Of a stretch of DNA of 64,000 nt, positions 1-43,316 are shown in pieces (within the stretch, counting starts at the first letter, position 1; each line of letters starts with the position of its first letter). Made by a program: the position numbers and the translations under genes. Location: positions 682,001-746,000 of the forward strand of contig JANTQA010000030.1 in NCBI GenBank assembly GCA_027625915.1. The letters run 5' to 3'. This DNA is from Anaeramoeba flamelloides (taxonomy: Eukaryota > Metamonada > Anaeramoebidae). The notes beneath the pieces are model-generated. The model was given only the letters and a program-made list of their open reading frames with translations, had not been told where the DNA came from and searched no databases.

Positions 1-1042
1 TGGAATGAATCCAAATGATGATAAAACAAAAAAAAAACCCTAATACCAAAAGAAATTTTATATCTTGGTATTTGGTTAGATAAAAAAAACTCATCTAAAA
101 TTTAACTTTGATAAGGTCAATAATAATTTTGAAAAAAATCCTACATATTTTTTAAAGAAAGGAATTTTTCTAATGGGTTAAAAATTCAATTCTTTAAAGC
201 CGTTTTACATAGTCAACTATTATATGGGTTGGAGATATTTGACTTTACAGAATCCGATTTCAAAAAAATTGATATTTGGATTAATAAGAAAATCACAGAA
301 TCGCTTTTAATAAACCCACATTCCCCAAGACTTATCTATAAAACTGAAGCAAAAAATTGATTTGGCAAGAATCACAATTTACAAAAGAAAATTCAAATTA
401 ATTCAAAAATTAAAAATTTTGGGATTTGATAAATTAATAAATCTTCTCCCCCTTCAGAGAAAAAGAAACAGAAAACATTAATTGGAAAGCTCGAAATTTA
501 AAAAGAATTAGAATCTGAACTCGAAGTTTACAGAATTAATCAATTAAAAAAATAGTCCAAGTTGGAAAGTACAAAATTATTTGAAAATAATTTTGATACA
601 GGGTAATATTAACAAACAGCAAAAAATATTTAAAATGGAAGGGTTCAACTTCTATTCTAAAGTTAAGAAATTATACAAATTATCTTAATAGATATTCTTA
701 TTTTATGAACAAAAATAAATCACAATTTTGTCAATTGTGTAAAATAAATAAAGATTTGGATATCATTGAAGATTTGGATCATTTTCTCTGGAACTGCCCA
801 GCCTATGAAAATAATCGGAAAATCTGGATTTCTGAATTAGAAAAAAATAATTTTTCACTTATTTTAAATAATAATAATATTTATAATATTATTAATAAAC
901 AAGATTCAATATCTTTATTAGCTTTAGTAGATAATAAGAGTATGTTTGAATCTATTATACGATTTCTAAATTCAAGTTTAGGAATTCGGGCAAACAAGAG
1001 GAATTCTAAACTCCTCCCTTAAATTACAATAAAAAAAAAAAT
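1..1042 (+). mobile_element. LINE (non-LTR retrotransposon) 3' end, degraded
   Basis: The left edge holds the end of a LINE ORF2. Near 55-90 the reading EILYLGIWLDK is the conserved segment after the reverse-transcriptase palm, and further along LLYGLEIFDF and PRLIYKTE continue the usual C-terminal region through several stops and frame changes. The last open piece (705-1022, 105 aa) carries a CxxC...H...C zinc-knuckle-like motif (CQLC, DHFLWNCPAY), typical of the end of LINE ORF2. An A-rich tail follows the stop at about 1030-1042. The same motif set recurs in the two other LINEs of this window (10.4-12.9 kb and 25.95-28.77 kb), so all three look like one family. The 5' part lies outside the window. 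The element is inactive as it stands. Confidence 0.8.
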
Positions 1043-1141: not shown

Positions 1142-1833
1142 AGATCCAAAACAAAAATTTTTTTTAATCAAAGTATAAAATTCCAAATTGTAAGATATTT
1201 CAAAATATTTTCTAGTTTTATTTTTTAATTAAAAAAACTTAAAAGTTAAAAAAATTCATTTCTTTTTTCGCCTATTTTTTGTCTTCTGTTTTATTTTTAT
1301 TTTATTTTTATTAAAAAAAAGTGGGATTATTCATGTGTTACTTTGTTAATTTTCTTTCTTTTTAATTTTCTTTCTTTTTATTTATTTTTTTTTTTTTTTT
1401 TTGTTTTTAAAAATAAATTTAAAATTTGAAATTTTATCAGAAATATAAATCTTGTTCTACCAAATAATAAGGTAAAAAATTGAAATGTGATTTCATTTAT
1501 TTGTTTATTTATCCAAATATTTATATTTTATTTATTTTTTTTTTCAAAAAAACACAATTTTCAATAAAAAAGAACAATTATTTTTTGATTTTAAAATTAA
1601 TTTTATACGAAATAAACACAATCAATAAAATTAAATTTCAAATTATTAATTAATTTTCAATATTTTTGATCTTTTTTTAACAAAATTTTTATTAATTTAT
1701 TCAAAGTTGGTGATAGATTTCGTGGATTATACCGCATGTATTACAAGTAATATAATATTTTATAAATCTTTCTTTCTTTTTCTTTTTTGATTCTTTTTTT
1801 TTCTCTTCTCATTAAATAATTAAAATGTATTTG

Positions 1834-1866
<33 letters not shown>

Positions 1867-3967
1867 CAAGTGATACAATCAATATTATTATTTTTTGATC
1901 TTGATCAAAGAGAACAATTTGAACAATTAGTATATTACAATTTTAAAGAAGTCCAAACACATTCTAAGCAAGATACAATAATCTTATTAGTTGGGCATTC
2001 GAGATTTGATAAAAGTGAAACAAAAAAAAGAAGAGCTGTTTCAAAAAAAGAATCAATTGTTTGAATTTTTTTTCTTTTTTATTTGAATTTTTTTTGATTC
2101 TTTATTTTGATGATCTTTTCTTTCAATTTTTTGTTTTTTAAGGTTGGTAAATGTGATAATTTTTTTTTCTTTTAAATGACAAAAAATTTGTTTGTATCAG
2201 TTTAATGTAATTCAAGGATTTGAGTGTTTTTCAGAAATTTTGTTAATTTTTCCAAATCACAATTTTAATTTTCTTTTAAAAAAAAAAAAAACAGTAAACT
2301 TCAAAAATTAATTCTTTTTCAGTCAAAGGGGTTCATTTTTATTAAAGAAATATCACTAATTCTATGAGTTTAACACGTATTCTTCTCAAAATAAATTTTC
2401 AAGTTTTAGATCTGATCATTTTTTCTATCTAGTAATTTTTTTTTTTATTGTTTTTCAATTTTTTTTTCTTTTTCTTTTTTTTTTTTATTTAAAAAAGCTA
2501 ATTTGAAAAAAAAAATGTTTGAAACTCCAAATTTAACATTCAGAAAAATGAGACCATGTAATTTTTTTTTTTAAAATTAATATATTTACTATTATAAAAT
2601 CTTATTGTCAACAATTTTAATTTTCCAAAAGAAATTGAGTAATTTTTTTCATGACGATATTTCAATGAAAAGAGTCCCCAATAATTTTTTAACATACATT
2701 TTATTTTTGTCAAAAATTTATAGTTTATTCAGGTATTTCCTTTATGAATATCAACTCTAATTTAAAGTTTTATTTATCTTTTATTTCTGAACAATCGTAA
2801 ATTGGTTTATTAAAAAAAAGGTGACTTTTTCATTTTTAACTGGGCACCTTTGAGTGAAATAGAGTTTATTTTACAAACTTTAAATAATATTATTTAATAA
2901 CTTAATTAAAATTAGATAAAGTTTTTCATATTTAAATCTTTTGAATAAAATAATCTTTCTAAAAAAATTTCTAACAATTAAATTTTTTCGATCAAAATAA
3001 ATATATATATATATATATATATTAACAACTTCTATAAAAAAAACTTAAAAGGAATTTGCAAAAGAAAATGGGATGAAATATATTGAAGCAAATTCGAAAA
3101 CTGGAAAAAATGTTCCAAATGTCTTTGTAGGAAATTTAATGCTTCTTTATGATCAATTTATTGAGCAAAATTTTCCAAAATATTCTTTTTTCAAACAATC
3201 TGAGAAATATTTCAAAGATTGTCAACTTTTAACAATTCAACAAGATTTTATCAATTTTTATAACAAACAAGAATTTTGTGATTTTGAAATTAAAAAGATT
3301 AAATGTCACAAATTAATTGTTGAATTAAGAACCAAACAAACAATCAAAAAAAATAGAAGAAATTTTAACAAATGAAGAAATTGAAAATATCAAATTATTT
3401 TTCAAATGGATTTATGGGAACAGACCTAAACAATCTGAATTCCTTTCCATTTCTCATATTTTTGAAAAAATCAATATTCAATTTTTTGACCTAAATTTCA
3501 AAAAGACTTTTTTAAATGATTTATCCAACTTGTATAAAGATAATAATTCAAAAGATTTCACAATCAAAATCAAAGAGGAATTATCAGATGAATCATCAAA
3601 TGAATCATCAAATGAATCTTTCAATGAATCAATAAAAGTTCATAAAATAATATTATTGATCCGAAGTGAATTGTTTAGAAATATGTTTAACAGTATTGAA
3701 GACAAAAATATCACATCCATTTTTGATTACAGTGGCAAATCATATGAAACACTCAAATGTTTAATCAATTATTTTTATACTGACAAATTGGTTTTCAAAG
3801 ATGGCGATGATCCTGATCTTATTTGTGAAGAACTTGAAGATGCAATTGAATATTTTCAACTTAACATCAAATCAAATTTAAAGCAATTAATAAAAAATGA
3901 TTGTAAAATTATTAAATTTTATTTGTTATATTTCTGCATTTATTTTTTGAAAAAAATGAAAAATTAA
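1142..3967 (+). pseudogene. Rab-like/BTB/BTB gene, 5'-truncated broken copy (copy A)
   Basis: This is a second copy of the gene at 6426-16355. Recognisable exon pieces are 1142-1189 (matches exon 3, ends IKFQI before GTAAGA), 1322-1337 (WDYSC, matches the 16-nt microexon), 1707-1746 (GDRFRGLYRMYY, a classic Rab switch II), 1871-2058 (ILLFFDLDQRE to SKKESI) and 3052-3967 (end of the GTPase fold and two BTB domains). Exons 1 and 2 are missing: the homology to copy B begins about 50 bp after the LINE tail at 1042. The microexon donor has become TTACTT instead of GTACTT, the start of the 1871 exon is two bases short relative to copy B, and an eight-A run at 3346-3353 (seven in copy B) shifts the BTB frame, so only 3073-3375 and 3530-3967 remain as open pieces. 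The last exon is nearly identical to that of copy B. It could still be transcribed, but no full protein is possible. Confidence 0.75.
3000..3022. repeat. TA dinucleotide microsatellite
   Basis: An uninterrupted TA run lies about 30 bp before the last exon of copy A. It marks the left limit of the segment that is nearly identical to 15.48-16.44 kb. Confidence 0.9.
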
Positions 3968-6425: not shown

Positions 6426-9400
6426 ATGGGAAACAAACAACCAAGAAAAAATGATCTTAAAATAAATAATAACCCAATAGAATCAAAAATTTTGGAACAA
6501 TACCAAAACAGATCAATTACTTCTCTTTCAAAAGAAGAAAAAAAAGAAATCCAAGATCAGCTTTGGCTAAAATTTTGTGAGTCAGAGTTTGAGAAAGGAG
6601 GAAATTCATTTAGTTGGACAATATTGGTTGTTCGAAACTTTTCTGCTCAATCAGATCTTATAAACAGTTATGTAAATCAAATAATTTTCTTTTTTTTATT
6701 TTTCTTCTTTTTTTTAATTTTTCTTTTTTATTTCAATGAGCAATTACAAATGTTAGAAAACCATTAGAACCATTACTAAAAAAACATTTTAAAGAGAAAA
6801 TATCTTGAAAAAGTGATCTTTATATTTTTAGGCAAATTCCAAAATAACTCGAAATAAAAAATACAAAATAATCCTGAAATTCTTTGATTTTTGAAAGGGG
6901 AAAAAATATCAAGTGCTTATCTTTTTTCTATTCTTCAATTTGAATTTTATTTCAGTTTCTTTCAGCAAAATATTCCCAGGTTGTAACTATATAAAAAAGA
7001 ACCAAACAAATAAATAGAGATTACAAATTATACTTTAATTTATTTTAAAACATTCTTACTGATATTTGAACATTAAAGGTGAAATATTTTCACCTCGTTC
7101 TTGTTTTACAATTCTTCAGAGAATCTCATTTCGGATTTTGGTTTCATACAAATGATGGGCAAAATATTCCTTAAAACGAAAATATAGAGATCAAAAATTT
7201 CTTCCTTTTTCTTTGAAAGATAATTGTTAAGTTAAATATGAAAATAAAAATGAAGTGAAAATTTTGTCCAATTTATTATTCAAACACCAGTAAATAAATT
7301 GTACAAAAGAAAAATTAATTCGGGTTTATCATTCAAATCAGTTTTAAAAAAATAGCCAAGTAGTTAATATAAGGTACTCTTATTTCTGATTTGTTTTGGA
7401 AATAAAACGAGAGTTGAAATTTGTAGAAAATAAAAATTTTTATAAATTGAACTAAATTATGACTGTAAAAAAATTATAATTTTAATATTTAGTTCTTCCA
7501 CTAGAAAAATTTGTTTTTCATCAAAAAACAAAATAAAAAAAAGTAAAAAAAAAAATTGGTACATTTATTATGAAATTTAGTATATAAGGTACTTATATTT
7601 CTGATATGTATTGGAAATAAAAGAAGAGTTGAATTTTGGAGAAATTGAAAAATGGTTTAATTTTAATAAGTAAGTTTCCACCCTTGAAAGTGTTGAGTTA
7701 TTTTGTTATTCCACTTTCACTTTTCAAAAAAACTTTTCAATATGAAGAAATTGGACAAAAAAAAAATACATTTTTTTGGAAATAACTTTGAGTAGTGAAG
7801 AGGAAGAGAATCTCAATTATCTCAAGAATAATACCCACTTCATGAATTTTTTTATCAATTTTTATCATTGGTTTAAAATGTTCTGAACTATAATTAAATC
7901 ACCAAGAGGATATTTCTGAAAAAGATTGTCTATTTTATAGCTATCAAGGCAGAATTTCAATTTTCTTTTTGAGTAAAAAAAGTACACTTAAGTGGGTTTT
8001 TGAAACTTGTACAATATATGATACACTATTTTGGGAATGGTAAGTTATATATAATTTTATCTAAACTATTTTTTCAAAAAAATTGACTCACTTTATAATG
8101 TTAATCAAAGTTGTTTTGAGGGTTTATTTATGTATTCTTATCAAAAAAAAAAAAAATAATTTCAAATTTTTGGATCAGAAGCGTTTTTTCGAATTTTGCT
8201 AATTTTAGTTTTTCTAATTTTTTTTTATATTTATTTTTCTTTTTCTTTATCGAAGAATTTTTCTTTTGTTTTTCCTTTTTATTTTTTTTTTTTTACTTTT
8301 TTTCTGATTAATTTTTATTTTTGTTGCATTAATCAAGTGGAAAAAAAAAAAGATCTTCAAAAAGACAAATAATTACTCAGAACATTTAGAATCTGTAATT
8401 TCTTTTAAAATGAATTGAATTATTGGCAAAAAATCTTGTTTTTAACTTTTTTTTCAGTGAAAGTTCAGTAATAAAAAATTTGTAATGTTGATTTCAAAAC
8501 TTGTGAATTAAATTTTTTTTAGTTTTTGGTTTTATTTCTTTTTTTTTTTTTATTAAAATATCAGACTTTTATTTATTTAGAATTATTTAAAAGTGAATTA
8601 AAAATCAGATTTAATTATTTTTTGTTCTTGAATATTAAGGGATATATATATTAACAATATATTATTTCCAGTGAGTCACAATTTTTGAAATTGTAATTAG
8701 TTAATTCTTAATTTATTGTGGGTATATTATAACTATTTCCACCACAGTATACATAAATCAATGTACTTTTTCCATTTTTTACCCCAAAAATCATAATTTC
8801 ACTGAAATTTCAATTCATTTATTGTTTTTTTTCATTGTATCATATTTTATTAGCTATTTTTTTTTTTTTTTGTAGTATTTTTATTATTCTATGACAGTAA
8901 AAATTCTATTCAATTTTTTAAAAGAACTTTATTGTTAATGAATATAATAAGCCAAAGAATGATTTTTTTTTAGTTTATTTTTTTTTTTTTGAAATAAAAC
9001 AAACAAAACTTCATAAATTAAAATTAAAAAAAAAACAAAAAAAAGGGTTTTAATTATTTTTTTTCTTTTAAGAAACCAATGTCCTTAATTATTCTCTCAT
9101 TTAAAATTATTTTCTAATATTTAAAATAAAAATAACTTTAAAGGTGGGAAAACCTCGTGGTAAAGGTTATCTTGGTTCTATCGGAATAGATTTTGTAAAA
9201 ATTTTCTTTTAATTTAATAATTTTATTAATTTCTCTTTTTAAATCTATTTTTGTTTTAAAACAAATTTATGAACTATTATTTTAATTATATATTATCTTT
9301 ATTCTCTGAATTTTACTCAAAAAATAATTCATTTAAAGAGATTAAAAACAAAAAATATTTTTAATCAAAGTATAAAATTCCAAATTGTAAGATATTTCAA

Positions 9401-12400
9401 AATATTTTCTAGTTTTCTTTTTTTTTTTCATTAAAAAACTTAAAAAAATAAAAAAATCATTTCATTTTTCTCTTATTTTTGATATTCTTGTTTATTTTTC
9501 TTTTATTATTTTTTTAAAAGTGGGATTATCCATGTGGTACTTTGTTAATTTTCTTTCTTTTTTTTTTACTTAATATTTTTTATTTTTGTTTTTTTTTTTT
9601 TGAAATAAATTTAAAATTTGAATTTTTATCAGAAATATAAATATATTTCTACCAAATAATAAGGTAAAAAATTGAAATGTGATTTCATTTTTATATTGAT
9701 TTATTTATCCAAATATTTATATTATTTTTTTTTTTTTTTTTTTTTCAAAAAAAACAATTTTCAATGAATAACAAACCAGTTTTTAATTTTATGTTAAATT
9801 AATAATATATAAACATAAATCAATAAAAAAAAATTCAAATTATTCAAATAATTTTCAAAATTATTGGTATTTCTATACAAAACTTATTAATGTATTAACA
9901 GATTGGTCAATACAGTCAATGATGCCTTTTATTTTTGAGTAAAATAATTTTGAATTCATCTTTCTTTCTTTTGTTTTTCTTTTGTAATTTTTTATCATTA
10001 ACTAATAATATTTATTTTTATTAAAAAATCATAAATAAATAAAAATCAGTGGAAAAAAATCAATATTATTAGTTTTTGATCTTGTTCGTAGAGATAAATT
10101 TAAAAAAATGCATAGATATATTAAAGAAGTCCAAACACATTCTAAGCAAGATACAATAATCTTATTAGTTGGGCATTCAAAATTAGATATCAGTGAAACG
10201 AAAAAAAGAAGAAATGTTTCAAAAAAAGAAGCAATTGTTTGAATTTACCTTTCTTTTTTTCTTTCAAATTTTACTTTTTTTATTATTTTTTTTAAAAAAA
10301 AATTTTCTTTTTTTTTTTCATTATTGAGGAAGAAGTGTAATTTACACTCTAGATACCCTTATACTTGAATTTACTTTCAGAAATTTAAGCGTAAAATCTA
10401 TGATTTTACGATTATTGTTTAATGAAAATGTCTCAAACTGTCACAGTTTAAAATTATTTCATTAAAATTTAATTTTTTTAATTTGTTTTGAAATATAAAT
10501 CTTTTTTTTTTCATAGGAAGTACTTACCCATAAAAAATGATCAATATTTTCTATAATGCCCTTTTACTTATATTTTAAACATATAGGACATTAGGTATTT
10601 GTATTTTTTTTTTCATAACATAGTAATATCTATTTAAGCAGTTTGTAAACGACCTAAATTTTAACAATATTGAACTTGATGGATAGCTTGAATATTTTTG
10701 GGTTTTAAATGAATTATTTTGATATTTTATTGTTGTGAAATATTTTTGGACCTTTCAACTTGTAGAATTGGCAACTCATTGTATTTATATTTATAATTTT
10801 CTTTTTGAAGAATCTTTAGGTTTTTTGAATTCCAATTAATTTTATTGTTGGTTCTTTGATTGAATTTTATTAATTTTTCCAGATAAGGCAGCCTTAATTC
10901 TTTTAATTTGTTTTTGAATTTAAATTTCTTTCTATTTATTGATATTACCAAATTTTCGAATAAAAATTCATTTTGTATATAAGAACTGGCGGGTTTCTAT
11001 TTATTTTGTATATTTCAGTAATACATGAATTTATCCAAGAATTTAAATAATTTATCGTTGTTATTTTATAATTATATATTTCTCATCCATATGTTAATTG
11101 GATTAATATAAAAGATTTAAGTAGTCTAATTTTCAAATTATTTGTTAATAGATCGTTATTGAATAATTGTTTGCAGTTATTGTATGTTTCTTTAGATTTC
11201 TTTCAATTATACATTAAATGTGAAATTTTATCTAAATAAATTCCTAAATAATTAATTTTTGATAAATCTTGTGAAATTTACGTTTTGTCTTAATTTGGTT
11301 TTAATCCAAATTGAGTTATTATTTGATATATTAAAATTAATTTTTCATTTATTTGATTTATATTTCCTTTTATAATTAAAATTAAATCATCTGCAAACAT
11401 TTTACAATGGTTTGTTAATGGTATGATTTTTAATAAAATAAAATGTGAAATAAGAGCAAATATGATATGCTGTAATAGATCCCCTTGTAATATACCAAGC
11501 CGCTTACCTTGATAATATTTTAATAAAAAAGTTTTTATAATTGTATTTAAAATAATTTCTTTATTTTTTTTCTAATTATTTTAAAATTAATCAAATCAAT
11601 ATTTTTTGCTATATCAATCATTATAATATATGTTTTATTATTTTCATTTTCATTATTTGATTTTATTTTATTATAAATATTCAAGAAATTTAATACTGCA
11701 ATGCGGGTATCAAATTTTTTTCGAAAACCAAATTGCGATTTATTATAAACTCCAACAAGGACAAATTAATTTATATAACATTTTTAGAAATAATCTTGGT
11801 AAAATTTGGTTAATTGGTATCGGTCTATAATTCAAAGCTACTCCTTCATCTCCTTTTTTATGAATAAATAGAATTGATCCTTTTTTGATATATTTGATCG
11901 TTTTATCTTAGGATTTATTAACCAATTATTAAATATAGTTTGAATTGTAGTTAAAAAACTTTTATAATTTTTGTAATTTGTTGATTTGGAATTTAACTCA
12001 TTTTCCTCATTAATAATAAGTTTTAAATTCTCAATTTTTTGAAATCCTTTAACTGATTTGTTTTTTAAATAATTAATTGTGTTTTTAATTTTTTCCATTA
12101 GGAAAAATGTATTGATTTTCAACTCTTTTAAATTAGTTATTTTGAGATTTTTTATATAATCAAAAATCTTTTTACTTGGTTCTTTTGAATTTTCCTTAAT
12201 ATAACCTAAATATTCATCATTCATATTTTTTTTAGTTAAAATCATACACATTTTTTTTATCCCTTATTAAATTGATTTTTTTCCAAAAAGTTTTGTTACC
12301 GATAAATTCTAAGTTTATTTCTTGGATAAATTTATTTCAAGATTCTTTGTTCATTTTTTTTAATTCAAATAATTAAAATTGGATTATTTAAAAGGTCATT

Positions 12401-15400
12401 TATTAATGGAGCAATTTTTTCATCAGTATTTTTTTCTTTATAAATTATATCTTTATATTGAATAAATTTAGTTTTAAATTTTTTTATTGTTTGAATATCT
12501 AGAATAAATTTTTGCTCATTAAAATATTTTGAAAATTCTTTTTGGTAGTATTCTTGATTTGCAATTTAATTTTTTTTTTTTTAATATTCCAATCGGTTTT
12601 AATATTAATATTATTAATATTCATTTTATGGTCAGATTGATCATTTTCAATTGATCTTGACTTTCTTAAAATAAATTTATTCTCAAAATTAATTAGTATA
12701 TGGTCGGTAATCTTTGTTCTACTATTTGAAGTATTTGAAATAATTTTAATATTTTTTAATTGTATATTTTTTTTATTTCAATATCCGTAAGATTAAAGTC
12801 GCCTAAAATTATAGTTTTAAAATTATAATATTTTAAAAAATATATTCTTTTTAAATATATGTATAAATATTACTTGTAAAAATCATATTTTTACAATTTT
12901 CAAATTATATTCCCATCAAAAACTTTTCTAATAACATTAATCATTTTTTTTTTTTTTGATTTAAGGGTTTGTTATTTTAAAAATTAAAGAGTTTTAAGGT
13001 TTTATTCATTTACCTTGGATATGTTCCACACTCAAGGAGTGACTTGGAACGAAAAGAGGGTATATGAAATTGCTCTTCTTTTGATTGGAAAAATTCAATT
13101 AACAAATAAAAATTTTGATATGAACTGTTTGGCAAAAAATTTCAATCAAAAAAAAAAAATGTTTTGAAAGATTTCTATATTTCAAACAATCAACTTTTAA
13201 TCAAGAAATTACTTATTGTTTCTTATTTTATATTTCCAAATAGTTAGATTTCAACAATTTAAAACGGATTTTAATTTTTGTCTTTAAGTATAATCGATTT
13301 AATTCGATTTAATCTAAATTAAGTTATGTTTATAACCCTATAAATTTGAAAAAGTAAGGATTTTGTAAAATTCTCTAGAAAAAAAAAATAACTTATTTGT
13401 GAAATTAAAAAAAATAAAAAAAAAAATCTTTAAGATCTCAAAAAGTGAAAAAGAGCTACACACCAAAACCAAAAAAATATGTTATCAAAAGTATAATATC
13501 ACAGTAATTTAAATTAGAAACTGAGTGTTACTCTTTTTTGGGTGTTTTTCTAAAGTATGTCTTCGTTTTTGATTTTTGAGTTATGGAGCTCTATAATGTA
13601 TCCAAATTTTGGTTAGTTGATGATTGTAATATTAGTAAATTTAAAAATTATAATTTTTTTTTTTTTTGGTTTCAGAAATTTATTTTTCATTATAATGAAA
13701 CCACCATTAACAGGAAGTTGATTATTTTGGCATGGGTCTTTTAAATTTTAATTGTTTATGTTGTGGTCTTAATGAGGGTTGGTAATGATAAGGAATTTTA
13801 TTGATGGGTTAAATTATGATAAGCTAACCAAAAGAGATTTTATTTCCTTCTATTTCAGAGATTATAAATGAAATAAAAAAAAAAGAATTACAAAATTAAA
13901 TTATTTCAAATAAAATTAATAATTTTTATATTAAAAATACACCTAATTTTTAATTAAAAATATACACTGGTGGATTTCCAAGAAAATGATAACCAACAAA
14001 TATATATATACAATGGATAAGGATAAATGAGCATTTTGGTATTAGTATTTTGTAAATATTAATACTTGTTCCAAGTTGATTCTCAAAAAAAAAAGAAAGA
14101 AAGAAAGAAAAAAATCTCTTACAAAATAAATAAACCTTAAAATATTATAAATCAATAAAGTTATCCAAATAAAATCCACAAAAAATGAAGAAAAATACTT
14201 TAAAAAAAAAGTTATTCAACAAAAAAATTGAATTTGAATTTAAAAAATGTTTTTTTTTTTGTATTAAATCTAAACTAAAAGATTTTCTTTGTTTTTTTTA
14301 TTATTTATTTTGATATGGAAAATTAATTTTCTCTTTCTGTATTAAGTTTTTTTAAAAATGTAGAAATAAATAAATAAAAATATTTGATTTTGTGTTTGTT
14401 ACTGAAATTAAAAAAAATAAACTTTTAGCATTCCCATGATTTAAAATATTAATGAAAATCTTTGATTTTATTTGATTATTTTGAATTTAAAAAACACTAA
14501 GCACTTTAGTGGCCACTTTTGGTTATTTTAAAAAAAAAAAATGATAGAAATAAGTTAAATCTTTGATTTTATTAAATTCTTTCAGATAAAAAAAGTGCTT
14601 TTAGGTTTTCCATAATTTATAATTATTGGGCAAAATATTTGATTTTTCAATCTTCTTTTGAATTTTGGAAAACCGCAGTTAGTTTTTTTTTTTTATTTTT
14701 GTGTTGATTAGAAAATCAATTAATTTTCTAATTTATATTAAAATTAAAAAAAATAGGGATTTCAACGTACTATAAGGTATTTGACTCCACTCCACAACAC
14801 TTTCCGTTATTTCTTAATTTTTGTTCAGAAATTTCAATAAAGAATCATATTTTTTTTAGAATTAAAAAATGAGGAGAAAAATAATGGTTCCTTAATTCAA
14901 ATAATATCAAAGATATTATTCATTATTTTTGTTTATAAAAATTAATTCTTTAATCCAAAATTTTCAATTTTTTTCATGGTATGGGTAGTCTATATTAAGT
15001 GATCGGTATCTTAAATAATTTATAAATTAGAATGATTTTTGCATTGAAAACAATTTCTTATTCTTTCTCAAACATTCAAAATTAATTTAATATATTGTTT
15101 TTTTTTTAAATTTTAATTTCCATTTAAACCAAATTTCAAAATTAGTGGCAAACTTTTTTATCTTATTTTTTTCTTGTTTCATTTGTATTTCAAAAAATAA
15201 AATAATTACAGTATATTTTTATTTATTAATCTATATTGGTTATTATCTTGAAAAACTTTAGTAAAATACCTTATTATACAAAAAAAAAACAATTAATCAA
15301 ATATATTTATGATAAAAAATCTACCCCTATTTTTGAAATTTAGCATATATATATTTTTTATTATTATTGAAACTCTGAAAAAATTTTGTTTTAAAAATCT

Positions 15401-16355
15401 TTCATAATGGTTGAAATAATTTTTTCTAAAAAAAAATTATATCAATTAAAATTTTTCTATTAAAAAAAAACAATTATTAACAACTTCTATAAAAAAAACT
15501 TAAAAGGAATTTGCAAAAGAAAATGGGATGAAATATATTGAAGCAAATTCGAAAACTGGAAAAAATGTTCCAAATGTCTTTGAAGGAAATTTAATTTTAC
15601 ATTATGATCAATTTATTGAGCAAAATTTTCCAAAATATTCTTTTTTCAAACAATCTGAGAAATATTTCAAAGATTATCAATATTTAACAATTCAACAAGA
15701 TTTTATCAATTTTTATAACAAACAAGAATTTTGTGATTTTGAAATTAAAAAGATTAAATGTCACAAATTAATTGTTGAATTAAGAACCAAACAAACAATC
15801 AAAAAAATAGAAGAAATTTTAACAAATGAAGAAATTGAAAATATCAAATTATTTTTCAAATGGATTTATGGGAACAGACCTAAACAATCTGAATTCCTTT
15901 CCATTTCTCATATTTTTGAAAAAATCAATATTCAATTTTTTGACCTAAATTTCAAAAAGACTTTTTTAAATGATTTATCCAACTTGTATAAAGATAATAA
16001 TTCAAAAGATTTCACAATCAAAATCAAAGAGGAATTATCAGATGAATCATCAAATGAATCATCAAATGAATCTTTCAATGAATCAATAAAAGTTCATAAA
16101 ATAATATTATTGATCCGAAGTGAATTGTTTAGAAATATGTTTAACAGTATTGAAGACAAAAATATCACATCCATTTTTGATTACAGTGGCAAATCATATG
16201 AAACACTCAAATGTTTAATCAATTATTTTTATACTGACAAATTGGTTTTCAAAGATGGCGATGATCCTGATCTTATTTGTGAAGAACTTGAAGATGCAAT
16301 TGAATATTTTCAACTTAACATCAAATCAAATTTAAAGCAATTAATAAAAAAATGA
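6426..16355 (+). CDS. Rab-like pseudo-GTPase fused to two BTB domains (copy B), seven exons
   Basis: Exons: 6426-6671, 9144-9194, 9339-9386, 9521-9536, 9902-9938, 10050-10236 and 15507-16355, all GT-AG, phases 0,0,0,1,2,0. They add up to 1434 nt, 477 aa, with no internal stop. Residues about 62-225 follow a Rab fold: FSWTILVV (strand 1), LGSIGIDF (switch I), IKFQI then WDYP (the WDTAG site), ILLVFDL, TIILLVG, and EFAKENGMKYIEANSKTG (G5 region). The nucleotide-binding motifs are degenerate: the P-loop reads RNFSAQSD instead of GxxxxGKS, the catalytic Gln segment is lost, and NKxD is replaced by HSKL. BTB1 is about residues 259-337 and BTB2 about 352-467, with a Ser/Asn/Glu insert. The layout parallels RhoBTB (GTPase-BTB-BTB, a Cullin-3 adaptor class), but with a Rab-type fold. 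The MGN start could be N-myristoylated. Exon 5 (WSIQSMMPFIF) is the least certain. A cullin-adaptor role is inference. Confidence 0.72.
7363..7650. repeat. Diverged direct repeat in intron 1 of copy B
   Basis: About 70 bp at 7363-7432 (from ATATAAGGTACTC through GAGTTGAAATTTG) recur at 7581-7650 with the same order of words (TATAAGGTACTTA, GGAAATAAAA, AGAGTTGAA). The period is about 218 bp. There is no coding potential. Confidence 0.65.
8062..8703 (+). mobile_element. MITE family 1, copy in intron 1 of copy B
   Basis: A non-coding element of about 640 bp with terminal inverted repeats: TAAACTATTTTTTC then TTGACTCAC at the left, and GTGAGTCACAATTTTTGAAA at the right. The interior shares ordered blocks with the copies at 16.44, 27.47, 31.25 and 51.89 kb, such as GGATCAGAA, AAAAGATCTTCAAAAAGA, TCAGTGAAAGTTCAGTAAT and AAAGTGAATTA. 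TA-flanked ends suggest a non-autonomous Tc1/mariner-type element; this assignment is inference. Confidence 0.75.
10331..10440. repeat. Short dispersed repeat, shared inverted with 21.54-21.62 kb
   Basis: It begins GAAGAAGTGTAATTTACAC, which recurs on the opposite strand near 21593-21615. The similarity continues through a stretch reading AAAATCTATGATTTTACG here. This looks like one end of a small element; no matching far end was found. Confidence 0.5.
10441..12900 (-). mobile_element. LINE copy 2, reverse strand, degraded
   Basis: Read on the minus strand from about 12.9 kb downwards: ILGDFNLTDIEI (APE-type endonuclease, GDFN) near 12.8 kb, IDHILI-like and SDHK-like endonuclease motifs near 12.65 kb, a linker frame at 11838-12251 (137 aa), then reverse transcriptase with IIMIDIAK, GKRLGILQGD and FADDLILIIKG (YADD-type catalytic motif) near 11.4 kb. 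The C-terminal CPIC...DHFLW knuckle lies near 10.55-10.6 kb. Many stops and frame changes. Its 5' end is truncated just before the GDFN motif. It sits antisense inside intron 6 of the Rab/BTB gene. Confidence 0.85.
12998..13706. mobile_element. TTAA-flanked element, family 2, diverged copy
   Basis: About 710 bp bounded by TTAA on both sides (12994-12997 and 13707-13710). The left end reads GGTTTTATTCATTTACC; the right end ends ATAATGAAACCACCA. The interior aligns block by block with the copies at 24.23 and 28.79 kb (GGAGTGACTTGGAACG versus GGGGTGACCTGAGACC; GAGTGTTACTC with its inverted partner). No transposase frame. The TTAA target resembles that of piggyBac-type elements; assignment is tentative. 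Confidence 0.65.
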
Positions 16356-16762: not shown

Positions 16763-19058
16763 TCAAATAACAATTTTTTTTATTATTAATTTGGAAACGC
16801 GTTTTAATTCTTTCAAAGAATATTTTTTATATGCTGATTTTAATTTTGATTTGGGGATTTTTTTATAACTTTGTAATAATTTTTTAATGCAGGGATTGAG
16901 GTCATTTTGATGATATTTTGTATAGTAAACCATATTGTGATCCCAAACCTGTGTGAGAGATTTCTTTGTCACGATCATTTTAGCTAATGCCACTGAACTT
17001 GCTGCTATCTGTGAAGAAAGGAAGGCCAAGTATGTAGAGTCGATGAGCTGTATTTCACAAAAGTAATTTGCTAACAGCATTGTTTTCAGATCAGCTTGTG
17101 ATGCGCGTAAATAACGCTTTAAAAATGGTTTTGGTGTTACGGGGCTTAAATCGAATTGCAACGCGTTCACAATTTTGATTTCACACTTGAAGATATCCTT
17201 TTTTGAGATGGAATTTTCTGTGATGTCGCTGAAATTCTTGACCGTTGGTGGGTACACCTCTTCATATTTGGATGCTATAAATAAGGCTGTAACGCCTAAG
17301 AGCTGCAAGTGCTTCTTTGAAATGCAGTTTAGACTTAAAAATCGATCAATATAATTCACAGCAAGATACAGCGTTTCAGAATGGAGTTTGTATTCCTGGC
17401 AGACATCACTTAGCCAATCAACAAGAATACCTCGCATTTTGCTATTAATCCTCGGTTGCTTTTCATCCAAGTATTTTGCATTCGGGCGGAAGTTCTGTTC
17501 TTTTTCTTTATAATATTCAAAAATTTCATCACTATATTCGGTAACAAAGAGTGGATCGTTTTCATATTTCTTATTGATGTCCAGAATTTGTTCAATTTTT
17601 TGATTTGTTTGGTTATCTTCCTGTGATTCTTCTTCTTGATCTTTGTTGGTTTCCTTTTCCTTTTTCTCTTTCTCTTTCTCTTTCTCATTCCCGTTCTCGT
17701 TCTCTTTTGGTTTGGTTTTGGTTTTGGTTTTGGTTTTGATTTTTGTTTTGGTTTTTGTAATTTTTTTTTCTTCCTCTTCTTTTTCAATTGCCATTTTTTT
17801 GGTTTCCTCTTCCTCTTTCTCTTTCTCTTTCTTGTTCTTGTTCTTGTTCTTGTTCTTGTTCTTGTTCTTGTTCTCGTTCTCTTTCTCTTTCTCTTTTGGT
17901 TTGGTTTTGATTTTTGTAATTCTTTTCTCTTCCTCTTCCCCAATAGGCATTTTTTTGGTTTGTTTTTTTGTTCTTTTCTTTTTTCTTTGTAAAGTGTCTT
18001 TCCTTTTTTTTTCTTTTTTCATTTCTTTTGGTTTTTCAGATTTGTTTTTTTGGTGTTTCCTTTTTTCTTCAATTTCCATTTTTTTTTCAATTTTTTTGGT
18101 TGTGTCATTCTTATTAATGTCTTTATTTTTAAGTTCATTCTTTTTTCCAATTGTAATTTTTTTGATTACCCTTTTTGCTTTTGTTCTTTTCTTATTTTTT
18201 TTGATTTTAATTCTTAGTTTTTTTGATTTAAGTACTTCTATAGGATTGGTAATTAATTGATAATTTATTTATTAATTTATTTAATTAATTTTCTAACAAA
18301 AAAGAGAAATGATATAAATTTTTTCTTTTTGATAAATTTTTGTTTTTGTTTTCTCAACCTTACAAATAATTCGGGAGTGTATTTCTATGAATAATCAGAA
18401 AAAAAAGTGATTAATTTTCATTTTTTTCAGTGAATTTAAGTTAAAAGATAATCTCTAGTATACTTTACAGTTATCAATCATAACAATTTTCATTTTTTGA
18501 AAAAATTCTCTTTAACTTCTTGATTACTAACTTTGAATTTATCAAGATTCTAACTCTCTCTTTTCTTTTGACGACTCTTTGAATTAGGAGTCACAAATTT
18601 AGTCACTTCAAAACTCTCTCTTTAACAGATTAAGAGCTCTTGTGCACTTAACCCTTACCAATAAAGCACAAACTCTCGTTTATCTTTTTTTTTCTGGTTA
18701 TTTGAATTATTTTTAATTTTGACAAGAATTTTTTAACGGTTAGGATCGAAAATGGAGTGAAAAAATAGAAAACAATTAGGATGACCAAACCTTTAAAAAC
18801 AACAATATTTGTTTTGGAAGATGGTTTTATGTTGAGGATTGGGTTTGTTGATTGCTTGATATTTTTGAAAATTTTTCTTTTTTTTAAATCGAAATTTTCG
18901 TCAAATTGGTTTGCAGTTTGGTTTGTGATATTTCGAAGAACCCTTTCACGTTTCCTCATTGCCCTTTTTTTTTGTTTTAGATGGTTATTCGTTCTTTTAT
19001 TTCGATCATTTAAAGGGAAAATATTGGTTAATGTATTAGGCTGATAAAAAAGACTCAT
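16763..19058 (-). CDS. Mitotic cyclin (A/B type), two exons
   Basis: Exon 1 is 19058-18791, exon 2 is 18237-16763, and the intron 18790-18238 (GT..AG) is phase 1. The joined protein is 580 aa. Exon 1 includes RVLRNITNQT, the conserved N-terminal LxDITN-type segment of mitotic cyclins, in a basic region. Exon 2 begins with a long Lys/Glu/Asn/Thr repeat region, then the cyclin box from about residue 330: MRGILVDWLSDV (357 onward), ETLYLAVNYIDRFLS and LLGVTALFIASKYEE, followed by a cyclin C domain (SPVTPKPFLKRYLR). MRxILVDWL and LQLLGVTALFIASKYEE are hallmarks of cyclins A and B, partners of Cdk1. I see no clear RxxLxxIxN destruction box; RERVLRNITN at the end of exon 1 is a possible relaxed version. 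The ATG at 19058 is the first in frame. It lies convergent with the Rab/BTB gene. Confidence 0.88.
17650..17910. repeat. Low-complexity coding repeat in the cyclin gene
   Basis: Hexanucleotide-like arrays (TCTTTC, GGTTTT, GTTCTT) encode tandem KEKEKE, KTKTKT and NKNKNK runs on the minus strand. They create long spurious frames on the plus strand. The lengths are likely to vary between alleles. Confidence 0.85.
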
Positions 19059-25321: not shown

Positions 25322-28300
25322 ATGAACTTTATATTGCATTTTTTAAAGGTTATTCACCATCAGTTATCTTCACCAAAATTTCGTTGGACGATCTCTCGTC
25401 TGGTTGAACTTACTGGTGTCGTAGGCTTTTTATATTGGATTTTGCTTTATTTCAAAATACAAAAGAACAAGAAGACATTCTTGTTGCACTACTCAAACTT
25501 TCAAAAACTTGTCACAGTCAAAGATCGTTTAAGTTATTTCCCAGAACAGATCAAGAAACAAATCGAAGAACAAATTGGTGAAGGAGAAACAATTCTAGAC
25601 GTCGCAATCCCCCAAGGAAATAACCTTTTTAGTGGTGCTTTACTTTTATACTATTTATTTTCGTTCGTTATTGTTTGTCTGTTTATTATTTCAACCTTGA
25701 TGATTTGTAAGCCTTCTTTCTTGTTTTTTTTTTATTTTCTTTTGTTTTTCTTTTTATTTTGGGGAGCTCCCAATTCTTTTCGTTTAAAAAAAATCCCAAA
25801 CACTTCTTAAAGAAAAGATCTATTTTGACAAGCTACGAAATTTGAATTAATAACATAAACTACAGGAACTCAAAATTTTAAATCATTCCCTAAATTCCCA
25901 CTATCCATTTTGGGTTGTTCAGAATACTGTCATTTTTCAATTAACAAATAAAAATTTTTATTTCAATTTCCTTGAATATTTTACTAATTAAATGATGAAA
26001 AATGACAAGGGCAAATAGAAACGATCAACTCAGAAATGATAATTTAAGAGATTTAATAAGCTTCCTTATTGAAACTTTGAGATCAAATTATTCTATTTTT
26101 AATTTGATTTTAACCTTAAAGATATTGAGATTAAAAAACAAATTCAATTAAAAAATTTGAAAATTTTTCCAAATTCCACAAATAGCAGAAAAAATAATAT
26201 TGACCATATCTTAATTATTTTTAAAAATAATTAAGGCTCTAAAAAAATCAAGATTGATAGAAAACCATCTATCTAACCACAAAATGATTATTAATAATAT
26301 TAATGTTAGCATAGATTGGAATATTTAATAAAAAAATATAAAATTACTAATAATAATATTTATCAAAAAGAATTTATTGAATTACTTTAGTGAAAAAAAA
26401 TATATTCCAAATACCCACTCTTTATAAAAAAATTTAAAAATAAACATATCAAATACACAGATATAATTTATAAAGAAAATATAAATGATTACAAAATTGC
26501 TCCATTGATAAAAAATATTCAAAGTAATCCAAACTTAATTAATAGGATCAAAAAAAAATGAACAAAGAAGCGTGAAATAAATTCATTGATGAAATAAACT
26601 TAGAATTTATTGAAAACAAAACTTTTTGAAAAGAAATTAATTTAATAAGGTCTAAAAAAAATGAAAATGATTTTAAATAATAAAAATATGATTGATGAAT
26701 ATTTTGGAAATATTAAAAAAAAATCAATTGAACCAAGTAACGAAATTTTCTTAATTATAAAAAATCTTAAAATATTTAAAATCAAAAGATTTAAAAGAGT
26801 TTACAATTGATATATTTTTTCCAATCTAAAATATTAAAAACACTATTAAAAAATTAAAAAATAAATCAGTTAAAGGATTTCAAAAAATTGAAGAGTTTAA
26901 AATTATATTATTAATGAAGGAAATTTCATTGATGACTCAATTGAAAATCTAAATTATAAAAATTATCTTATTACAATTCAGAAATATTTAATAATTGGTT
27001 GTTTAACCCTAAGAAAAATAATATTTCAGATAGTAAAAAAAGGTCAATTTTATTTATTCATAAAAAAGGAAATGAAGGGGTAGCTTTAAATTATAGACTA
27101 ATTTTTAATCACCAAAGTCTACCAAGATTATTTCTAAAAATGCTATATAAACCAATTGAACCTTGTTAATTTATTCACAAATTTCAATTTGACTTTCGGA
27201 AAAAATATGTGATACTCTCATTGCAATATTAAATTTCTAAAATACTTATAATAAAATCAAATCAGATAATGAAAATGAAAATGATAAAACAGATATTATA
27301 ATGATTGATATAGCAAAATTTTTTGATTCGATCAATTTTAAAATAATTAGAAAAACAATATAAAAATTTAATATAAATAAAATTATTCAAAAGTTTTTAT
27401 TAAAATATTATCAAGGTAAAGAACTTGGTATATTCCAAGGGGATCCATTTTCTCCTATTTTATTTGTTAATAGTAAACTCTTTTTCAAAAATTGTGACTC
27501 ACCTGAAATAATAAATTGTTGAAAAAAAAAAATTATCCTTTAGTATTCAAAAACAATTAATAACTAAATCTGATCGGTAATTCACTTTTAAGTCATTCTA
27601 AATGCATAAAAGCCTGATATATTAAAAATTAAAAAAAATAAAACCAAAAACTAAAAAAAAATTGATCACAATTTTTGAAATGAGCATTTATGGATTTTTT
27701 ATTCCTAAACTTTCACTGAAAAAAAGTGAACAACAAGATTTTTTATGAATAAAAAAAATCATTTTCAAAGACATTAAATAGTCACAATTTTCATAGTGAT
27801 TATTTATCTTTACCAAGATCTCTTTTTTTATTTCAACATGATCTTTTTTTTTTAAAAAAAAAATATAAACAAAAAAATAAAAAAAAAGAAATCAAAAAAA
27901 AAGAAAAAGCAAAACTAAAATTTTCAAATTAGAAAAAATGATTCTGATCCAAAAATTTGAAAATATTTTTTTGAGAAGAATACTGGAATAAAAACTCAAA
28001 ACAACTCCCATTAACATTATAAAGTGATTCAAAATTTTTGAAAAATAGTTTATAATTTTCAATAAAAGAAAATGTGAAATTAGAGCAAATGATTGTAAAA
28101 TGATTGCAGATGATTTAATTTTAATTATAAAAGGAAATAAAATTTATTTAAATCAAAGATTAAATTCAATATATGAAATTATTATTCAATTTGGATTAAA
28201 ACCCAATAAAAATAAAACAGTTATATCAAAAGATTTTAAAAAAATTAAATATTTAGGTATTGATTTGGAAAAAATTTCACATTTAGTTTATAATTTAAAA

Positions 28301-32056: not shown

Positions 32057-35000
32057 CTAATGTTGATGGAAACTGGGAATTTGATTTCTGGAATTTTCTC
32101 TTAATGCCATTAAGCATTTAACCCAAAATCTGAGTTGAATTTGGCTTTGAGCGATAAAATCTGCAGTGCCTTCTGTCGTAATTAAACTAAAGCAGAGGTT
32201 TTCTGTAACTTTTTTTTTAACTTTTTCAAAAATTTTGGTTTTAATTCCAATCGTAATTTTTTTAATATCGATCATTAAGATTTTTCGAGGCTTACGCTTT
32301 TTTTTACTATCGTTCCAGTTACAGTATGTCCCGCCTCTCTCGTTTGAAATATATAATAACCTTTGATAGCGTTTACCATTGGGTCTAACCTTTGTAATCA
32401 ATGCGCCATTTTCTAAATAATCTTTTAAATCTTCCAAATAAAATCTTTCCGAACTAAAAATTACTCGGATTTGATCTTGCTTTTTATATTTCTTTAAGAT
32501 ATCCCGAAACATTGATTTAATCTCGGAATCAAATAATAAATTTACTCTTTTACGTTGCATGATAATTTGCTTTTTAATATTTGGGTTTGCAATGGCGGAT
32601 TGATTTTTTTTGGAGTGGTTATTTTTATTGGTATGCCTTTGAAGAATTTTATTTATATGGTAATAGTCTAGGATTTTTAATTGCTCGTCATGCATATCCC
32701 TTTGTGGATTATTTGTATGGTCAATTTGGGATTCTTCCTTCTTTGTTTCATTCGCCTTTTCAAGAGATTCTTCGTTGTGTTGTTCTTTATTCTCGGTTTT
32801 ATTATTTTCATTATTAATATTTTGATTTGAGGCTTTTTTTTTTTTTTTATTTTTTTTTCCTTTTTTATTTTTACCCTTCTTGCCCTTCTTGCCCTTCTTG
32901 CCCTTCTTGCCTTTTTTATTCTTTTTTCTATTCTTTTTTCTTTTTTCCTTTTTCTTTTTCTTTTGATTTTGAGGCTTTTTGGTTGTTTCTTCTTCATTAT
33001 TAGATAATTGTGTGTTTGCATTCCCCTTATTTATTGTGTTATCATTTACATTTATAGTTGTGTTTGCATTTTCATTCTGATCATTTTCATTCTGCCCATT
33101 TTCATTCTGTTCATTTTCATTCTGTTCATTTTCATTCTGTTCATTTTCATTATGCTCATTTTCATTCTGTTCATTTATATTTGTATTTTTCGTTTCTATA
33201 TTTGAATTATTTTGATCTTGTTCTGTCAATTGCACTTTCACTTGCTCTTGTTTTGGTTCTTCGTCGTTCAAATGATTTTTATTATTGTCAATAATATCTT
33301 GAATGGGTTGTGTATTATTTTCCTCTTTTTTATCATTAGCTGATTCGATTGTTATTTCAATTGGGATATCTTCTTTATTATTAGTAATTTTTTTTGAATC
33401 ATTATTTGCCAAATCTTTAAATTTATTTGTTTCTTTCATCATTTCTTCAAATATTTCATCTTGGTTGATATTTGTTATACTATTTTTCGTTAATAAATCA
33501 ATTTCCTTTTCCAAATCCATATTTTCATTAGATTTATTTTCGCCCTTCCCAGTATCATTTCCGCCCTTCCCAGTATTATTTTCGTTTAAAATGTTTTTTA
33601 TATCAAGATCATCTATGCCACCATTTAATAGGTCATTTAATTCATCTATTTCAAAATTGTCACCTTGGGTTAGCACATCATAATTTGGTTCTGTATTTAT
33701 TTCCTTCATTAATTCTTCAAGTGAAGAATCTTTTTGTTTTGGATTTAAAATATTATCATGATTAAAATTTTCCTTTTCTTTTAAATTAGATCCAAAATTC
33801 TGTTTCTCTTGTTTTAAATATAATTTATCCTTTGTTACCGTTTCTGTCTTTGGATCAGTTTTTATTTCTTTTTTTATTCCTAGATTTGGTTGCTGTTCTT
33901 GATCATTTTTTAGGAATGATTTATGTCCAATTTCAGGTTCAATCTCAATTTCTTTTTTGATTTCTATTTCGTTTTCAGGTTCATTAAACTGAGGATTTTC
34001 CAAACCAGAAATTGCCATTGATAATAGTTGTTCAATTACATCTTTTTGACTTTCACTGACTCGAGAATTTAAACTGTGAACTTTTGTATCATAAACTGAA
34101 TTACTATTGCTCTTGGTATTGGTATTGGTCTGTGTATTATTTATTAATTGATTGATTTCATCATCATCATCATCATACTCCTCGTCTTCGTCGTCGTCGT
34201 CGTCATCATCATCGTCATCATCATCGGTGCGTATGTCGTCGCTACGGGATGAATCGGTGACGGTGTCGTCTGAAGTATTTCCTATTTTTTCCATATTAAA
34301 AGAATCATCATCTAAATAATTGTTCAGCAAATCATTACTAAAATTGTCTTCATTTAAAATTTGATCGATATCAAAATTAAAATTATTTTCAAAATCAATA
34401 GCATTGGAAAGATTTGAATTATCATAAATGGAATCTTCTCTTAAAAATTCGTCAATATCAATACTATCATTGCTTCCAATGGCTTCTGTGTTGTATTTAT
34501 TCTTTTTTGAAACTGTTTCATCGTTTATTAGATTTGGTGAATCATATTTGGAATCTTCTTTTAAAAATTCGTCAATATTGATACTTTCATTTCTTTCCTT
34601 ATTGTAATTAAAATTTGTATTATTATTTGTGTTTCTGTTTGTAATTGTATGTGTTGTTGTGCTTGTGCTTGTGCTTGTGTTTGTGTTTGTGTTTGTGTTT
34701 GTGTTTGTGTTTGTGTTTGTATTTGTATTTGTATTTGTATTTGTATTTGAGGTTATATTCAAATTTAAATCTGTTTTTGAATCAAGATTTGTGTTCTTAT
34801 TTGTTCCGTTAATTTCGTTTTGGTTTCTTAAATTCGATTGGCTATAAATGGAATCTTCTTTTAAAAATTCATCAATATCAATACTATCATTCGATCCAAT
34901 AACATACCCACCCAAACCATTATTATTTTGGTTGCTTGAATTGGTTTCTTTCTTTTCAAATTGTGGTGAATCATATTTGGAATCTTCTCTTAAAAATTCA

Positions 35001-36071
35001 TCAATATCAATACTATCATTCGTCCCAATAACATACCCACCCAAACCATTATTATTTTGGTTGCTTGAATTGGCTTCCTTATTTTCATTCTTTTCTTTGT
35101 TGTCTGTTGGCTTAGAGTTTAAATATAAATTTAGATCAAAATCGCCCAGTTCTCCATTAATCTTGTCAAATATCTCATCGACGCTTGTTGTTTGATTTTT
35201 TAGTTTACGTAATGTCCGCTTTGGAATATCTGGTGTCGAGTGAAGTTTTTTTTGGCTTTTGAATTCAACTCTTATGTCATCTTCAAAATATGTTTTTGTT
35301 TTTGGTACAGTTGTGTTATTTTTCGTCAATGAATAATTGCTCAGATTTGGTCTGTTTTGTTTTTGTGTGTACGCCCTTCTTCGGAGAGTGTTTGTTTCTA
35401 ATTTGGTAATTTCTTTTGTGTTTGAATTAACACTTAGATTGGAGACTCCTAAAAAGTTCTCGTTTGAATTACCCAATCCATTATTTTCCTGGATCTTTTT
35501 TGACTCGCCGGAAAGCGGTAATAATTTTTTGATCCACTCATTACGGATTTTCTCTGATCCTGCAGATAGGTGATGGTTAATGTTCGAGATCCCCAGAATT
35601 AAACAATATTCGTGATCAGGAAATTGTTCTGTGGTTACAGTAAAACCCTTGTTCAACGACAAAACTGTTATTCTTCTTGCAGACTTTTCTCAAACAGCAA
35701 GTGTTTTTTTGTTTTTGTTTTGATGTTTGTATGGTTTTTGTTTCAAAATTGTACCACAAAGAATTTTTTTTTTTATTTATTTTGTTGTTTTTTTTATTTT
35801 TTGTGTTTTTGTTTTTGGTAAAAAGAAAAAAAAATTTAATAATAGTTTTGTATTTGATTGGGCAGTGTTACTTTTTTTTGAAAAAAAGAAAAACGGGCCC
35901 ACAAATTAGTAAGTGGTAATATATTCTTACTCGTTTTTCATTTGAAAATTGCTCAATAGATTTTCTCTCATCATTAAATCTCCAGTATCTTTTCCTCCAC
36001 ATTGATTTAAAATTATTTCTTTGTGTACGATAATGAAACCAACTCCCAAAACCTGGATCTATATTTGTCAT
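32057..36071 (-). CDS. Long disordered protein with N- and C-terminal PH domains, two exons
   Basis: Exon 1 is 36071-35931 (47 codons), intron 35930-35684 (GTAAGA...AAAAG, phase 0), exon 2 is 35683-32057; 1255 aa. The split N-terminal PH domain reads GSWFHYRTQRNNFKSMWRKR in exon 1, then SARRITVLSLNKGF and ...SEKIRNEWIKKLLPL in exon 2. The last 130 residues form a second PH-like domain (ENGALITKVRPNGKRYQRLL, CFSLITTEGTADFIAQ, FWVKCLMAL), similar in order to PLC-type PH domains. About 900 residues between them are low complexity: five NDSIDIDEFLxED-type repeats, (NT)n, a poly-Asp run, NENEQ repeats and KKGKKGK runs. The acidic and basic blocks and two lipid-binding folds suggest a membrane scaffold; this is inference. 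No catalytic domain. Confidence 0.82.
34420..35080 (-). repeat. Coding repeats: SIDIDEFL units and an NT array
   Basis: Units encoding NDSIDIDEFLREDS or close variants occur near 34440-34475, 34555-34595, 34850-34895 and 34980-35025. The two at 34.85-35.08 kb also share GLGGYVIG and SSNQNNN and are nearly identical at DNA level, so the last duplication is recent. A (GTTTGT)n array at 34665-34750 encodes the NTNT run. Confidence 0.85.
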
Positions 36072-41856: not shown

Positions 41857-43316
41857 TGGGAAATCAAAGAAATTATGAAGAAAAATAAAAAACAAAAAAA
41901 TAAATTTTAGAACAATAAGAAATAATTTTAAAGAGGAATATTTGTTCAAGAATAGTTTGATTTTCAAACACCAAACAAAAACAACAAACAAATTTCTTGT
42001 TTGGTTTCAGTAAATTTTTGAGTCAAGTTATTAAAAAAAAGACTTTAAGGTATTTTGAAGCATAATTTTAAATTTTAAACCATTTCAAAGTTGTAAAAGT
42101 AACTAGTAACAATCTTTATAACAGTTTAAGAAATATTTTTGTGTTGTTTATTAATTTGAAATCGAAATTATGAAATAGTAAAAATCAAATTTTGGATCTT
42201 AGAAGTGTAAAAAAAGTTGGAATTGTGGAAATTTCTTATTTTTACAAAAAAAAATTCCCAGTGGATAAATTTCTGTGTGTTGATAGAAAACTTTTTCATG
42301 AGTGGTTGTTTTTATCACAATTTCATCATTTTCAATAAATACCAACCTTTGGTACTATTGCCTATTTTATTTTCGTTTTTGTTATTTTTAACATATTTTT
42401 ATACCTGTAAAGAATCATTAGTCAAGAAATATTCCAAAAATTAATTTTTTTTTATTTTTATTCTAATTATTTGAAATTTATCAGTAAAATTAATAGTAAA
42501 AGTAAAAAAAAAAATATTCTATTGAATGAAAAGTGAGGTGATCTTTTCAAAAAATAATATCATTTTACCAGAGAAAGAGAAAAAATAGTTTGATTAAGGG
42601 ACTAATCTCGATTAATTTTTTTTACCTAAATTTAATAGAGATTGAGAAAATTTTTTGTCAAAAAATTAGATTTGAAAAATCCCTGTTTATTTTCAATATT
42701 AAAGATATTTCTAGAGAAAGAATCCAGACTTAACAATTGGCCAAAAAAAAAAAATAGAGATAAGTTTCTTCAACAATTTTTTTTTAAGTTTTACCTTTCA
42801 GAAGGTTTTAAAATGAAAATTTTATCATATAAAAGTCACTCTCTTTTCTTTAAGAGTAATTTGGGGCAAGGATGAGAGTATAAAAATACAGAAAATACAT
42901 AGAAAGCCTGATAAATTAGTGGTAAATTAAACTTATTTACTTTCTTCTTTTGATATTTTAACAATTTCAAGTAGTTTTTCGATCAGTAAATTCTTTTTTT
43001 AATTTTCATAACCAATCCAAAAAAAAAATGAAAATTGAAATATTTTTTTATTATTGAGTGATGAAATTAATTTATACCCATTTTACTTTTTTCCAAATTT
43101 TTGTTTCGAAATTTCACTAAAGAGTCAGGAATTTTTCTAGAATTATTATTTGTAAAGATAAATTATGAATCTTTGTTTAAATTATTAAAACCCATTCACT
43201 CAATTTGGTCCCAGGCAAAAAAGAAAAATTCACACTTTTTTTAAGAATTAACTAAACTAAAATTGTTTTGAAATAAGTGAAATAATAAAATTCAGATTAA
43301 AGTTCATATTCATAAA
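41857..43316. other. Intergenic, nothing recognised
   Basis: Short frames at 42217-42444 and 42642-42875 begin at non-ATG codons and show no motif. Confidence 0.45.

Follow-up and report, generated by a model that had tools for sequence, protein, structure and literature searches.

A 64,000-nucleotide (nt) stretch of the genome of the metamonad Anaeramoeba flamelloides (contig JANTQA010000030.1, positions 682,001 to 746,000, forward strand; hereafter the window) carries at 6426..16355 a gene whose predicted product joins an N-terminal helix, a Rab-type small GTPase fold without its nucleotide motifs, and two BTB domains. The first-pass annotation of this DNA had proposed seven exons with matching phases and a product of 477 amino acids; rebuilding the gene gave exactly that product, with a single terminal stop. 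All six introns have GT-AG borders, the exons start in phases 0, 0, 0, 0, 1, 2 and 0, and the public protein P0003 (489 amino acids, annotated 'rab2a') aligns end to end, with 310 of 488 columns identical (64%). As a reading of the sequence, the predicted seven-exon Rab-BTB-BTB gene model is confirmed. Its exons are as follows.

6426..6671, plus strand: exon 1, conserved N-terminal helix, Rab beta-1 and degenerate P-loop; helix 30/36 and P-loop part 3/22 identical to P0003
9144..9194, plus strand: exon 2, switch I region, with SIGIDF at its end where Rab has TIGVDF; scored against seven relatives
9339..9386, plus strand: exon 3, beta-2/beta-3, RLKTKNIFNQSIKFQI; scored against the P0003 segment
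9521..9536, plus strand: exon 4 (16 nt), WDYPC, start of switch II; splice sites and phase, weak sequence support
9902..9938, plus strand: exon 5 (37 nt), switch II in degenerate form; supported by splice sites and phase, with a sequence score of 12
10050..10236, plus strand: exon 6, beta-4 to beta-5 of the Rab fold, with HSKLD in place of NKxD; tblastn of P0003 E 8e-14, within public model P0002
15507..16355, plus strand: exon 7, last part of the Rab fold, a linker and both BTB domains; matched by P0003 in tblastn at E 5e-127, Pfam BTB, structure model

Exon 3 ranked first among 1110 open segments of its size between 6672 and 10049 when scored against the corresponding segment of P0003. Exon 2 ranked low in its first scoring test (score 9, outranked by 270 of 1039 open segments, the best of them overlapping exon 3) because the target also covered the exon 3 region; scored in its own register against P0003 and six Rab-like proteins, it came top of 810 open segments between 6672 and 9338, and it is the sole open 51-nt segment in that interval with AG before it and GT after it. 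The lengths of exons 4 and 5 fit, the residue count from WD to beta-4 equalling that of Rab when counted by eye, and from exon 2 to exon 6 the P0003 alignment is broken by a single one-residue gap. An extra exon at about 9633-9663, prompted by conservation in a second copy of the gene (copy 1, described below), was rejected because P0003 has at most one additional residue between WD and beta-4 and because the adjoining non-coding sequence is about equally conserved. The public model of the gene, P0002 (325 amino acids), is 100% identical over 68% of the 477-residue query and shares the junction of exons 6 and 7.

A search with the 477-residue protein returned 25 proteins from 7994 scored candidates, 23 of A. 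flamelloides and two Rab-like. Its family comprises six other annotated proteins, of which P0003, P0004 ('ras-related protein rab-18'), P0007 and P0008 each lie on a 12.8 Mb contig, and P0005 and P0006 on a 0.6 Mb contig. These proteins share with the window protein the N-terminal helix, a Rab or Rab-remnant head, the BTB-BTB tail and the motif losses; homology with the P0003 group extends over the full length, from helix through Rab-type head to tail, although the head of the window copy is more diverged than that of P0003. The P0004 model reads through an apparent intron, and the P0005-P0007 models are without Rab segments, P0005 and P0006 lacking most of the Rab part. Missed micro-exons could explain some of these partial heads, and so could loss within the genes themselves; the pattern suggests that micro-exons hide Rab-BTB heads in public gene models of this genome. 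The A. ignava matches were confined to ankyrin-BTB tails (P0039, P0041), and a Rab-BTB protein could have been missed there at the mean identity of 37.3% reported between the Anaeramoeba species compared (PMC11550330).

The head had been described as a Rab fold with degenerate nucleotide motifs, a description that stands. Pfam assigns it to Ras (E 3.3e-23), and the 60 PDB sequence matches listed (of 677 for the window protein and of 653 for P0003) are Rab-type. The fold check rests on two structure models, made from P0003 and from the exon 7 protein: the listed fold matches of the former are Rab-type, and the latter covers the BTB tail. GxxxxGK[ST] is absent from all six family sequences that carry the P-loop segment, and none of GxxxxGK[ST], NKxD, SAK and DxxGQ (searched as DTAGQ) occurs in the window protein or P0003. 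The same four patterns were negative in P0004-P0007, where the exons encoding the later motifs are missing from the P0005 and P0006 models and partly missing from those of P0004 and P0007. The former P-loop differs in sequence between family members, and the Rab half of the window copy is more eroded than that of P0003. Prenylation cysteines are likewise missing, with no Cys among the final 10 residues of either protein; myristoylation of MGNK was considered and set aside, the myristoylation pattern fitting poorly by eye. When the P0003 head (residues ~68-246) was used to look for the parent Rab, 43 candidates and 12 matches came back, none named Anaeramoeba, and the annotation names rab2a and rab-18 are no evidence on that parent.

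Neither the P-loop lysine nor the NKxD guanine motif survives in the family, so switching of the Rab fold by guanosine triphosphate (GTP) is probably lost. The head might instead bind nucleotide in an unusual way, by analogy with RhoBTB3, which is described as binding adenosine triphosphate (ATP) although its G4 and G5 motifs are altered (PMC4931677), and the retained Rab fold would allow for this; loss of the P-loop GK[ST] in six of six sequences, in a loop that varies between members, makes such binding very unlikely in our estimation.

For the tail, the claim of two BTB domains is upheld by different means for each. Pfam recognizes one (E 3.4e-10), whereas the first goes undetected by Pfam and is indicated by conserved positions together with the exon 7 structure model. 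BTB1 is compact in both the model and the alignment, without a large insertion, and the modeled chain stops within one helix of the second BTB. The tail is 193/244 identical to that of P0003, and a tree of tails places the window protein and the P0003 group on one branch (98/97). The nearest tails are those of Anaeramoeba ankyrin-BTB and RCC1-BTB proteins, which have a homologous two-unit BTB tail (most are 33-43% identical to the exon 7 protein or the P0003 tail) but carry RCC1 or ankyrin repeats where the Rab head would be. In KLHL3, the phi-x-E motif is given as M83-S84-E85 (PMC3616122); the region after BTB helix alpha-3 reads I-E-E in P0003-P0007 (five aligned) and I-E-D in the window copy. 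Modeling predicts that the two BTB domains pair within one chain, and the pair probably docks partners, plausibly cullin-3.

The Rho insert has a characteristic size and place in Rho-type GTPases; no such insert was found in the Rab head, which has about four extra residues at that place. The order of a small GTPase followed by two BTB domains is nevertheless that of RhoBTB1-3 and Dictyostelium RhoBTB, and the GTPase domain of RhoBTB3 is likewise described as strongly diverged (PMC4931677, PMC1257465). RhoBTB proteins differ in being Rho-type, with a proline-rich linker, a large insertion in the first BTB (PMC1257465, PMC4931677) and a BACK-like end, and in that RhoBTB2 binds GTP and RhoBTB3 ATP. 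That the window protein might be a very diverged RhoBTB, which the shared domain order would favor, was rejected on its GTPase type, its compact BTB1 and the missing BACK domain; with the listed PDB matches being Rab-type and with tails nearest to ankyrin-BTB and RCC1-BTB proteins of the genus, this descent is barely credible, and the separate origin raised in the first-pass annotation is supported. The absence of RhoBTB chains from the listed fold matches of P0003 does not in itself count as evidence on this point.

There are other precedents. The Rab-BTB-BACK-Arf protein of Malawimonas californiana, compared here by description only, has an N-terminal Rab linked to BTB, and ARF-family GTPases with BTB domains are already published (PMC8358228). 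The Btb3-type ankyrin proteins of Schizosaccharomyces pombe, also likened by description, place tandem BTB domains behind another interaction domain, without a GTPase head; the S. pombe proteins are reported to interact with Pcu3p, the homologue of Cul3, and for Btb3p both BTBs are required (PMC1257465). The RhoBTB plan and a Rab-BTB-BACK-Arf protein are thus known, and the present family is already partly annotated as 'rab2a'; what is new is a Rab head stripped of its motifs throughout the family, a BTB pair that RCC1 and ankyrin proteins of Anaeramoeba also carry, and a gene structure whose micro-exons hid the head. No description of a Rab-BTB family of Anaeramoeba was found in the open-access literature, most subscription journals lying outside that coverage, and the word BTB is absent from the main text of PMC11550330.

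Together, these observations make it fairly probable that the window gene belongs to a small A. flamelloides family of proteins in which an N-terminal helix and a Rab-derived pseudoGTPase precede a two-BTB tail and which serve as scaffolds or adaptors. Domain order, motif loss, family membership and the shared tail are read directly from sequence. The Rab head would serve as a fixed, nucleotide-independent docking surface, and the protein would act as a scaffold or ubiquitin-ligase adaptor, working in a RhoBTB-like way but built from a Rab. A proposal for RhoBTB is that its GTPase domain sits on BTB1 and blocks access of cullin-3 until released by a partner (PMC4931677); by analogy, similar masking could operate here with a fixed, non-switching head. 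Such a family indicates that evolution arrived at the plan of a small GTPase with tandem BTB domains from both Rab and Rho starting points, and that a small GTPase can keep its fold after giving up the nucleotide switch. A. flamelloides is reported to encode almost 400 Rabs and to keep bacterial symbionts in membrane compartments (PMC11550330), and Rab-derived adaptors tied to ubiquitin control would therefore be a plausible extra layer. A bolder version is possible, if doubtful: "frozen" Rabs, released from nucleotide control and seated on an internal BTB pair, their former active sites diversifying, may capture Rab partners or other trafficking proteins and pass them to a cullin-RING ligase, as a separate invention of the RhoBTB plan in a Rab-rich lineage, perhaps tuned to the compartments that hold symbionts.

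Several observations weigh against the adaptor reading. Exons 4 and 5 score 12 against the Rab switch II string, which 3.5% of 2000 shuffles equal or exceed, while their score against P0003 is 0. P0003 is the one relative of the six annotated whose gene model keeps the Rab head unbroken, and its structure model is of middling confidence (mean predicted local distance difference test 68.7, predicted template modeling score 0.50). The Foldseek match of the tail to a POZ pair is loose (template modeling score 0.49, root mean square deviation 5.8-7.0). A cullin-3 adaptor role is further disfavored by the lack of any Pfam match to BACK at E 1 in the window protein, and the I-E-E/I-E-D triplet lies, by our own count, one residue closer to the preceding Met than in KLHL3, ending in D in the window copy. 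Divergence between the window gene and copy 1 is about equal at nonsynonymous (dN) and synonymous (dS) sites in exons 3 and 6 (dN/dS: exon 3, 0.093/0.067; exon 6, 0.171/0.167; exon 7, 0.010/0.007), on few sites and with copy 1 broken. Finally, P0002 starts at a Met inside exon 6, without exons 1-5.

This last point raises the prospect that exons 1-5 are not joined to exons 6 and 7, so that the product would be P0002, in which the BTB pair follows half of a Rab fold. The weakness of exons 4 and 5 and the similarly truncated models of P0005 and P0006 would fit; yet exon 1 matches the start of P0003 at 30 of 36 positions in the same order, exons 2 and 3 are at the expected places, all parts are joined in P0003, and gene finders easily miss exons of 16-51 nt. 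We therefore hold an unjoined head to be quite unlikely.

The second copy and a long intron bear on another question, that of decay.

1142..3899, plus strand: copy 1, damaged counterpart of exons 3-7, at ~1142-1189, 1322-1334, 1707-1746, 1871-2058 and 3052-3899
10237..15506, plus strand: intron 6, 5.27 kb, with remnants that resemble reverse transcriptase in antisense orientation

Copy 1 lies upstream of the window gene and is 79% identical to it over exons 3-6 and their introns (861/1091 columns) and 96% identical over exon 7 and flanks (1028/1067). That exon 7 is far more alike between the copies than the Rab exons and introns are suggests, from sequence comparison, a recent exchange over exon 7. 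The exon 7 counterpart has a frameshift, and seven codons differ, the last at the extreme end, where copy 1 is one base shorter; the counterparts of exons 5 and 6 are out of frame under the joins tried. Since the genomes were built from Nanopore and Illumina reads (PMC11550330), the frameshift may be a homopolymer error. The switch II of copy 1, WDYSFGDRFRGLYRMYY, is nearer to a normal Rab than that of the window gene (45 versus 12 against the same string).

Decay is the main rival to an adaptor family that includes the window gene, because the Rab half is more eroded than that of P0003 and because exons 4 and 5 are weakly supported. The gene would be a pseudogene, or close to one, in a duplicated, transposon-filled cluster, and only relatives such as P0003 would be functional. 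The neighboring copy is already broken, dN/dS is near 1 in exons 3 and 6 on the few sites available, the exon 1-5 head is only 20/73 identical to P0003, and a repeat has swelled intron 6 to its present length; moreover, with exon 7 near-identical in both copies, the intact frame there may stem from recent exchange and not from selection. Nevertheless, none of the seven exons is interrupted and their splice sites are usable, and the helix (30/36) and tail (193/244) have stayed near P0003 as the P-loop part (3/22) diverged, an uneven constraint that uniform decay would not produce. We judge decay rather unlikely, although it is the strongest of the rivals.

Mobile elements have also left their mark on the public models. 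P0009, the model of copy 1, runs a fragment of a long interspersed nuclear element (LINE) into the BTB exon. A LINE-like frame at 753-938 (plus strand) encodes 62 residues identical to a stretch within P0008 and P0009; either transposon sequence has been fused to the Rab-BTB exons in these models, or both loci harbor the same element. Within intron 6, broken reverse-transcriptase-like frames with sub-threshold RVT_1 matches lie at 11290-12777 (minus strand) as part of an interspersed repeat, an inverted relative of which at 26106-27449 is 79.6% identical over 1360 columns.

Elsewhere in the window, the adjoining gene at 16763-18268 (minus strand) is a 501-codon frame with Cyclin_N (E 7.6e-48) and Cyclin_C (E 6.7e-27), its cyclin domains preceded by a long low-complexity stretch rich in lysine, glutamate and threonine. 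Long open frames without a Pfam match at E 0.01 lie at 32057-35689 (minus strand, 1210 codons), 39802-42006 (minus strand, 734 codons), 47027-48412 (plus strand, 461 codons) and 61132-63828 (plus strand, 898 codons). The 1210-codon frame holds tandem repeats at 33067-33176 (15 nt, 7.3 copies) and 34849-35087 (129 nt, 1.9 copies), with units that are multiples of three.
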